Assembly: GCF_018069755.1 (NCBI RefSeq)
Contig: NZ_JAGQDE010000023.1
Coordinates: 1 to 61,468, forward strand
Direction: 5' to 3'
Length of the DNA stretch: 61,468 nucleotides
From: Ideonella aquatica
GTDB lineage: Bacteria > Pseudomonadota > Gammaproteobacteria > Burkholderiales > Burkholderiaceae_C
Position 1 is the stretch's first letter, and each line of letters opens with the position of its first letter. The translations under genes were made by a program, and so were the position numbers. Positions 5,424-6,230 of the stretch are shown here, in pieces. Below the pieces are notes generated by a model, which saw nothing but the letters and a program-made list of their open reading frames with translations, made no database searches and had not been told where the DNA came from.

Positions 5424-5439
5424 TGCAACGGCCGTGCCA
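5424..5439 (-). promoter_or_regulatory. sigma54 promoter of nifHDK
   Basis: TGGCACG-GCCG-TTGCA on the minus strand is a perfect match to the -24/-12 consensus. Transcription is predicted to begin near 5412, about 140 nt before the nifH ATG. Confidence 0.95.
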
Positions 5440-5456
5440 TGTCGCTTGAGATCACT

Positions 5457-5469
5457 CAAGTGCTTGTTT
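5457..5469 (-). promoter_or_regulatory. IHF-like site upstream of the nifH promoter
   Basis: AAACAAGCACTTG on the minus strand matches the IHF consensus WATCAANNNNTTR with one mismatch. It starts 17 bp upstream of the -24 element, between it and the NifA site, where IHF bends nif promoters in other bacteria. The core AAGCACTT recurs at the nifB and isc promoters, and with one change at nifV. Confidence 0.7.
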
Positions 5470-5519
5470 TTCCGAGGAAAGTGCGCCTCACGGGGTGGGG
5501 AGAGCGGCCCCCGACAGCG

Positions 5520-5535
5520 TGTGCGAAACCCGACA
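5520..5535. promoter_or_regulatory. NifA upstream activator site shared by nifH and the hemoglobin gene
   Basis: TGT-GCGAAACCCG-ACA is a perfect TGT-N10-ACA site. It lies 80 bp from the nifH -24 element and 135 bp from the plus-strand -24 element of the hemoglobin gene, both workable distances. No second perfect site was found in the interval. Confidence 0.85.
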
Positions 5536-5670
5536 AAATCCGGTCGACGACACGACAGCCCGACGGCCTTCACGCGCGCGCGCCGAGTGCTGCGCGCGGG
5601 CGTTCGCGGGGGCGCTCACAGCGGCTGACGCCCGGTGCGGCGCGCAGGCCGATCGGCGCCTCCGCACAGG

Positions 5671-5686
5671 TGGTATAGCCCTTGCA
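5671..5686 (+). promoter_or_regulatory. sigma54-type promoter of the truncated hemoglobin gene
   Basis: TGGTATA-GCCC-TTGCA keeps the invariant GG and GC with exactly 10 bp between them and a perfect TTGCA; three bases of the TGGCACG half differ. Transcription would start near 5697, only a few bases before the ATG at 5700, so the message would be nearly leaderless unless translation starts elsewhere. Confidence 0.65.
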
Positions 5687-5699
5687 GTCAGGGTCTGTC

Positions 5700-6230
5700 A
5701 TGAGCTCCGCCCTGCCCGTCGTCAGCGCCCCGCCCGCCAACCCGCATTACGCGCGCATCGGTGGGCACGAGGCGATCGTGCGCCTGGTCGAGGCCTTCTA
5801 CCGCGCGATGGACACGCGCGCCGATGCCGGCGTGATCCGCGCGATGCACGAGCCCGACCTGGCGCGGACCCGGCAGGTGCTGGTGCAGTACCTCAGCGAA
5901 TGGATGGGCGGGCCGCGCGACTACTCGGCCCAGCGCGGCACGCCGATGCTGCGCCGCCGCCACCAGCCCTTCGACATCGACGCCGCCGCGCGCGATGCCT
6001 GGATGGCCTGCATGCGCCAGGCGCTGGCCGAGTGCGTGCCGGACGAGGCGCTGCGCGCCGAGATCGACGCTGCCTTCTGGAAGATCGCCGATTTCATCCG
6101 CAACACCGAGGGCGGCGGCCAGCCGCGCCAGCACCCCGGCCGACCGATGGAGGTCGCGCCCCACACCACCCCGGCCACGCACGCCAGTGCGGCCGCCACC
6201 GTTTCATCCCCCCACCGGAGTTCGACATGA
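5700..6230 (+). CDS. Truncated hemoglobin (group II type)
   Basis: A 176-residue protein whose residues about 15-135 form a 2-on-2 globin: ARIGGHEAIVRLVEAFYRAM (helices A-B), the RRRHQPFDID segment with the proximal histidine, and a following Trp (DAWMACM) typical of group II. The C-terminal 40 residues are a low-complexity Pro/Ala/Thr tail. Such globins bind oxygen or NO. Placement divergent from nifH with a sigma54-type promoter suggests oxygen or NO handling during nitrogen fixation. The ATG at 5700 is preferred over an upstream TTG that overlaps the promoter. The stop overlaps the next start (ATGA). Confidence 0.88.
   Translation: MSSALPVVSAPPANPHYARIGGHEAIVRLVEAFYRAMDTRADAGVIRAMHEPDLARTRQVLVQYLSEWMGGPRDYSAQRGTPMLRRRHQPFDIDAAARDAWMACMRQALAECVPDEALRAEIDAAFWKIADFIRNTEGGGQPRQHPGRPMEVAPHTTPATHASAAATVSSPHRSST

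Follow-up and report, generated by a model that had tools for sequence, protein, structure and literature searches.

In Ideonella aquatica (Burkholderiales), nifH, encoding the nitrogenase Fe protein, stands back to back with a gene for a truncated haemoglobin (glb), and the region between them was analysed within a window of 61,468 nucleotides (contig NZ_JAGQDE010000023.1, to whose forward strand all coordinates refer). Its genes and control elements, compared with those of relatives, make it probable that NifA bound at one site drives both nifHDK and a near-leaderless glb-X-draT-draG-arsC-like message, whose globin would handle oxygen. Under nitrogen-fixing, low-oxygen conditions, NifA would bind the single site at 5520-5535 and activate sigma54-RNA polymerase at two back-to-back promoters, from which nifH(DK) would be transcribed leftward and glb-X-draT-draG-arsC-like rightward. 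Rightward transcription would start 0-3 nt before the globin ATG, possibly at its A; the globin message would be leaderless and lack a Shine-Dalgarno sequence, and X behind it would be read from an ordinary ribosome-binding site. An expected effect of the leaderless start would be globin synthesis that does not depend on Shine-Dalgarno recognition. A globin with a plausible role in oxygen or nitric oxide (NO) handling would then be made alongside nitrogenase and the genes for its reversible ADP-ribosylation switch, most likely binding oxygen, either to supply respiration or as a scavenger, during nitrogenase synthesis.

All three elements that a first-pass annotation had read from the letters of this region were found where it had placed them. 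The sigma54 -24/-12 element of nifH, TGGCACGGCCGTTGCA (5439-5424, minus strand), agrees with the consensus in 12/12 letters and is the sole match with 0 mismatches in the whole window. The NifA-type upstream activator site (UAS), TGTGCGAAACCCGACA (5520-5535), is an exact TGT-N10-ACA and the only one between the two promoters, and the element of the globin operon, TGGTATAGCCCTTGCA (5671-5686, plus strand), has 9/12 consensus letters with the correct GG-N10-GC spacing. On the nifH side of the UAS, a site resembling that for integration host factor (IHF) was found at 5454-5469, with 1 mismatch to WATCAANNNNTTR on either strand. No sigma70-like promoter was detected in 5271-5760 by the E. coli-type consensus of the tool. 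As the window holds 7 copies of TGT-N10-ACA against 5.5 expected, and a sigma54 element of at least 9/12 is present in 8.5% of shuffled 200-nt upstream regions, neither the UAS nor the globin element is significant within the window sequence alone. Between the nifH -24 and the UAS, the IHF-like block is overlapped by a dyad, TTGAGATCACTCAA, and by a terminator-like stem (both within 5443-5470). FNR-type control of the globin was also considered and set aside: the single TTGA-N6-TCAA dyad (5446-5459) sits on the nifH side.

The globin element was accepted as a probable promoter because of its conservation across loci. The comparison covered the window and 96 globin loci (75 from named genomes and 21 further), and in 42 sequences, including the window and its copy L001, the globin was divergent from nifH within 2 kb. 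Of these 42, 29 had a sigma54 element of at least 9/12 (range 9-11/12) at 27-29 nt upstream of the globin ATG; shuffles put the chance at 0.0013 per locus, and a coincidental promoter was rejected. After intergenic regions at least 90% identical had been dropped, 23 non-redundant loci were left; these were selected for carrying the element and are mutually related, and they do not amount to 23 independent events. Across them, mean column conservation was 0.90 for the UAS, 0.89 for the nifH -24/-12 and 0.81 for the globin -24/-12, and 0.42 for positions 5536-5670 and 0.47 for the spacer from the -12 to the ATG.

Outside the nifH-divergent loci, elements of 9-11/12 at 27-28 nt were found in L028, L031, L035 and the Methylosinus-type loci L064, L065, L072 and L074, of which L064 has a nifA-like gene (named by eye) downstream and L074, from Methylosinus sporium DSM 17706, carries glb-X; L026 has an 8/12 element at the globin-type spacing. 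The control set comprised 46 globins whose fetched stretch held neither X nor DraT nor, within 2 kb, a divergent nifH; in this set, an element of at least 9/12 at the same spacing was present in L035 only, a nif-type globin of Azohydromonas lata (70% identical) at a contig end, where the upstream stretch ends at 388 nt. This set is rough, with only about 1.5 kb of flank in 11 of the 46 loci (L002, L012-L021) and a NifH match about 5 kb downstream in L025; with one positive among the 46, itself of the nif type, the sigma54 spacing was rejected as a general trait of group II globins. Within the genus of the window (16 genomes, the window included), 11 genomes carry nifH, and a nif-type globin (at least 59% identity) was found in 10 of these 11 and in 0 of the 5 genomes without nifH.

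The +1 of sigma54 promoters is conventionally set 12 nt after the C of the GC, which places the predicted globin start at 5697, 3 nt before the ATG at 5700; with the A of the ATG taken as the other limit, the element position gives a predicted start within 5697-5700 on the plus strand. In the 23 loci, where the ATG as globin start is built into the search, the predicted leader is most often 2 nt long (14 loci) and otherwise 1 nt (7 loci) or 3 nt (2 loci), in support of the start 3 nt before the ATG and the near-leaderless message that the annotation had suggested. The base at -1 of the globin ATG is a C in 23/23 loci, compared with 13/21 for X, which would fit with the A of the ATG itself as the initiation point. 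Shine-Dalgarno-like 4-mers were found 5-16 nt upstream of the globin in 3/23 loci, of X in 19/21 and of nifH in 23/23. The globin message is predicted to be leaderless, its 5' end coinciding with the AUG or lying only a few nt from it, and to have no Shine-Dalgarno sequence.

The ATG at 5700 appears to be needed, because no in-frame ATG, GTG or TTG occurs in the 45 nt after it and the PF01152 domain begins at residue 17, and a wrongly assigned start codon was thus ruled out. A short leader as a general habit of the nif promoters in the window was ruled out too: nifB and nifV are both preceded by an exact TGT-N10-ACA and a sigma54 element, and their predicted leaders are 23 nt long, with purine-rich sites (that of nifV measured to an ATG behind its predicted start, just before which there is an earlier in-frame ATG), and the predicted leader of nifH is about 143 nt. 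Perfect matches to the IHF consensus were seen at 30868, 38961 and 45607, in front of the nifB and nifV sigma54 elements and of that belonging to a third gene (at 45589, minus strand).

Exactly one exact UAS lies between the two promoters in 23/23 loci, and this, together with the spacing kept in the relatives, supports the annotated arrangement, in which one NifA-type site lies between two sigma54-type promoters. The centre of the UAS is 87-100 bp from the nifH -24, with 90 bp in 15/23 loci and 100 bp, about one helical turn more, in L027, L030, L036, L037 and L041. An IHF-like site with at most 1 mismatch is present on the nifH side of the UAS in 22/23 loci; such sites between UAS and promoter are common, if not universal, at NifA/sigma54 promoters. 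As distance and IHF-like site are fixed on the nifH side only, the geometry is one-sided, with an enhancer tuned to nifH. Sharing of the UAS by both promoters is nevertheless likely where the spacing is ordinary. In L028 and L031, no NifH match was found in the fetched flanks, yet both keep the sigma54 element and, at about 150 nt before the globin, a UAS, which favours a UAS genuinely serving the globin; the neighbours in L031 are a gltX-like gene and a tRNA-like sequence, both recognized by eye.

The globin itself (5700-6230, plus strand) matched PF01152 with 111.7 bits (3.1e-32). Its closest solved structures were 4uur and 2xyk, and these two, 2bkm and 1ngk, all of which we take to be group II truncated haemoglobins, ranked above the group 1 HbN entries. 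Tyr34, His50, His88 and Trp101 are conserved, and Tyr34, His88 and Trp101 presumably correspond to Tyr B10, His F8 and Trp G8. From its closest solved relatives and these three pocket residues, the protein is assigned by sequence to group II (trHbO), which upholds the annotation of a group II globin divergent from nifH. Among nif-linked globins, His88 and Trp101 are present in 47/47 and Tyr34 in 46/47. No alignment column, those of the heme pocket included, separated nif-linked from other globins in the test used, so that the chemistry of the globin is not readable from its sequence. In the globin tree, the nif-linked proteins do not form one clade (5 label changes, where some loci labelled as other may end before their nif genes); a set of 27 rows of the Ideonella/Leptothrix/Azohydromonas type was recovered with support 100/98, and L043, with a 28-nt spacing, fell outside this set with weak support. 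Two tandem truncated globins were seen in the Rhodoblastus loci L063, L067, L070 and L073.

On the minus strand the order is nifK, nifD and nifH, nifD having been used as a query by frame and nifK named from its position; nifH (4389-5270; TIGR01287, 456.5 bits, cut-off 394.35) starts with the ATG at 5270. On the plus strand, glb is followed by the nif-associated open reading frame X (6227-6817; 31-row alignment), whose start overlaps the glb stop, and then by draT, for dinitrogenase reductase ADP-ribosyltransferase (6940-7767; PF07357, 318.7 bits), draG, for ADP-ribosyl-dinitrogenase reductase hydrolase (7736-8689; TIGR02662, 386.7 bits, cut-off 337.05), and a gene for an arsC-like nitrogenase-associated protein (8721-9155; TIGR01616, 150.3 bits, cut-off 109). 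The true start of draG may be a later ATG than that annotated. The locus encodes both DraT and DraG, and thus both genes of nitrogenase switch-off. X, draT, draG and the arsC-like gene behind the globin had been missed by the first-pass annotation, as had the one-sided enhancer geometry. Because the consensus of the tool detected neither a terminator-like nor a sigma70-like site in 6150-9500, glb-X-draT-draG-arsC-like probably forms a single operon headed by the globin. The presumed activator gene, nifA, is at 30969-32630 on the minus strand (TIGR01817, 670.7 bits, cut-off 528.85), and one match to rpoN was found in the genome.

The window globin and that of the Ideonella alba record L022 share 99% identity. 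The nifHDK-glb-X segment is flanked by an inverted repeat of about 92 bp (87% identical; 1110-1201 and 6828-6918), whose 23-base core occurs genome-wide in just these two places. Both copies are present in L022, the nifK-side copy only in L038, and a diverged copy after X in L044. Inversion of the nifHDK-glb-X segment could be allowed by this repeat.

X had no Pfam or NCBIfam match, and one of its relatives had a DUF7063 match below the cut-off (20.2 bits, cut-off 27). A profile search against PDB sequences gave nothing convincing, the best hit (E 0.025; chain 5af2_A, 'VP3') not being accepted as a relative. Its AlphaFold model has a predicted local distance difference test score of 92.3, and a Foldseek search with it against the PDB gave no match at E<=0.001 (best E 0.027), with query-normalised template modelling scores of at most 0.29 among the 50 rows listed. 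X is a conserved nif-associated protein with a confidently predicted, unmatched fold. It was found in 33/399 genomes of the order, and a close NifH in 57/399; 31 of the 33 are also in the NifH list, the two exceptions being a genome in 470 contigs and one 67% complete. A requirement of X for nitrogen fixation was ruled out by the 26 of 57 nifH genomes without an X match.

The one nifH-bearing member of the genus without a nif-type globin, G012, has lost most of the globin gene but retains the nif promoter region (L101:874-1040). Upstream of nifH in L101, the UAS and the element of nifH are preserved together with a plus-strand element of 11/12 at 874. This plus-strand element is followed by an apparent C-terminal globin remnant, seen by eye and giving no globin match by tblastn, and then by X, draT and draG. 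Because G012 keeps the promoter and these genes without most of the globin, the promoter may serve the genes downstream of the globin too.

Several observations weigh against NifA at the single site driving both nifHDK and a near-leaderless globin operon. The globin element of the window is the weakest of the 23 loci (9/12). Eleven of the 42 nifH-divergent loci have a different arrangement, in which a receiver-domain gene (PF00072 in the two genes tested) lies between promoter and globin, with two UAS and a best element of 8-11/12 at 52-129 nt from the start of the receiver gene. The predicted globin leader of L045 is 22 nt, the elements of L025 and L049 are farther upstream (in L049, 273 nt before the extrapolated match start), and no element was found at 27-29 nt in L055 and L057, which carry glb-X with no nifH in the fetched stretch. 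The distance from the UAS to the globin -24 is not fixed (18-233 bp), and an IHF-like site was found on the globin side of the UAS in 0/23 loci. In L039, where the gap is 18 bp, and perhaps in L027, where it is 39 bp, the UAS is nearer than ordinary looping would allow, and its sharing is doubtful in both. These distances, and a UAS and IHF-like site fixed relative to nifH only, would fit a UAS that belongs to nifH alone and a sigma54-dependent globin promoter activated by NifA from solution or by another enhancer-binding protein, such as NtrC, as would four Methylosinus-type loci with a 9/12 element at 27-28 nt and no exact UAS within 800 nt. We consider this quite unlikely, given the exact UAS kept before the globin in L028 and L031, whose fetched flanks gave no NifH match. 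Also to be weighed is the AGGG at 5690-5693, 6 nt before the ATG, which resembles a Shine-Dalgarno sequence and would fall outside the predicted message. It could be used if, besides a NifA/sigma54-dependent globin promoter, one farther upstream gave a longer transcript that supplied most of the globin, and GGG/AGG fragments do occur in the spacer of some relatives. Such a transcript seems improbable in view of the few loci with Shine-Dalgarno-like 4-mers before the globin, the low conservation of the spacer and of 5536-5670, in which no second conserved promoter is seen, and the lack of a sigma70-like site by the consensus used.

Two further alternatives concern what the operon is for. Group II globins with Tyr B10 and Trp G8 react with both NO and O2, and the pocket residues kept in the nif-linked globins would suit a protein acting mainly as an NO dioxygenase that shields nitrogenase, rather than as an oxygen carrier. 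The same residues do not separate nif-linked from other globins, so that the sequence does not decide between the two; a mainly NO-directed role is rated as rather unlikely. If, instead, the promoter served chiefly to express draT-draG with nif, the globin would be a dispensable first gene, as the loss of most of it in G012 would suggest. That assembly is, however, only 89% complete, in about 210 contigs, and glb-X occurs without DraT in the fetched stretch of L046-L048, L050, L053, L054 and the Methylosinus-type loci, and we give this possibility little credence. It is also conceivable, though unlikely, that the globin and X form an oxygen- or NO-responsive input to DraT/DraG, with leaderless translation setting the globin apart from the rest of the operon and its promoter borrowing a nifH-tuned enhancer. 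NifA-driven expression of nifHDK and of a near-leaderless operon with an oxygen-handling globin is preferred over these alternatives.

Globins of nif clusters are known from other systems. The cyanoglobin gene glbN of Nostoc lies between nifU and nifH and is linked to nitrogen fixation; unlike the window globin, it encodes a group I protein under cyanobacterial regulation without NifA/sigma54. In Herbaspirillum-type operons, a receiver-domain gene comes first behind the sigma54 element (L053:5505-5936, L048:5552-5977), and the window arrangement is without it. The Herbaspirillum loci L053 and L054, with this gene, two UAS and 91-93 nt from the element to the ATG of the receiver gene, would not give a leaderless globin; the window, in contrast, has no receiver gene and carries draTG behind X. 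For the globin-like genes in the nif cluster of Herbaspirillum seropedicae SmR1, the part of the 2011 report consulted describes a putative NifA-regulated promoter and proposes oxygen delivery for energy under N2 fixation, so that a nif-cluster globin with proposed NifA control is common to both organisms (PMC3093359). In the acid mine drainage fosmid DX-1A-14, globin and response-regulator genes (nrf2/nrf3) are placed in a nif-fix cluster with a sigma54 site before nrf3, and a shared-enhancer or leaderless arrangement is not described in the sections consulted (PMC3912193). Candidate NifA sites upstream of draTG, with predicted NifA control as here, are given for Magnetospirillum and Rhodospirillum; in the portion of that article seen, no globin is described and the word occurs only in a reference title (PMC4999443). 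In Bradyrhizobium sp. DOA9, hbO was lowered in an rpoN mutant, an example of a globin under RpoN influence in a diazotroph, for which the excerpt seen does not give the promoter architecture (PMC13207237). Leaderless messages are described, in the excerpts consulted, in alphaproteobacteria (PMC12403871, with dRNA-seq of Methylosinus sporium 5, PMC3616915, PMC4842269). In the open-access literature searched, neither a leaderless sigma54 globin message nor a glb-X-draTG unit was found described. The proposal of a NifA-driven globin in a nif cluster is thus already known, and the leaderless geometry and the glb-X-draTG unit are apparently new.

The handling of oxygen by free-living diazotrophs with active nitrogenase is a long-standing question, for which a nif-induced globin tied to draTG would provide a concrete target. 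The locus would also provide a natural example of a sigma54 promoter kept at constant spacing from a start codon, so that the message should be leaderless. X, which within the order is nearly confined to genomes with nifH, deserves study as a nif-associated protein.
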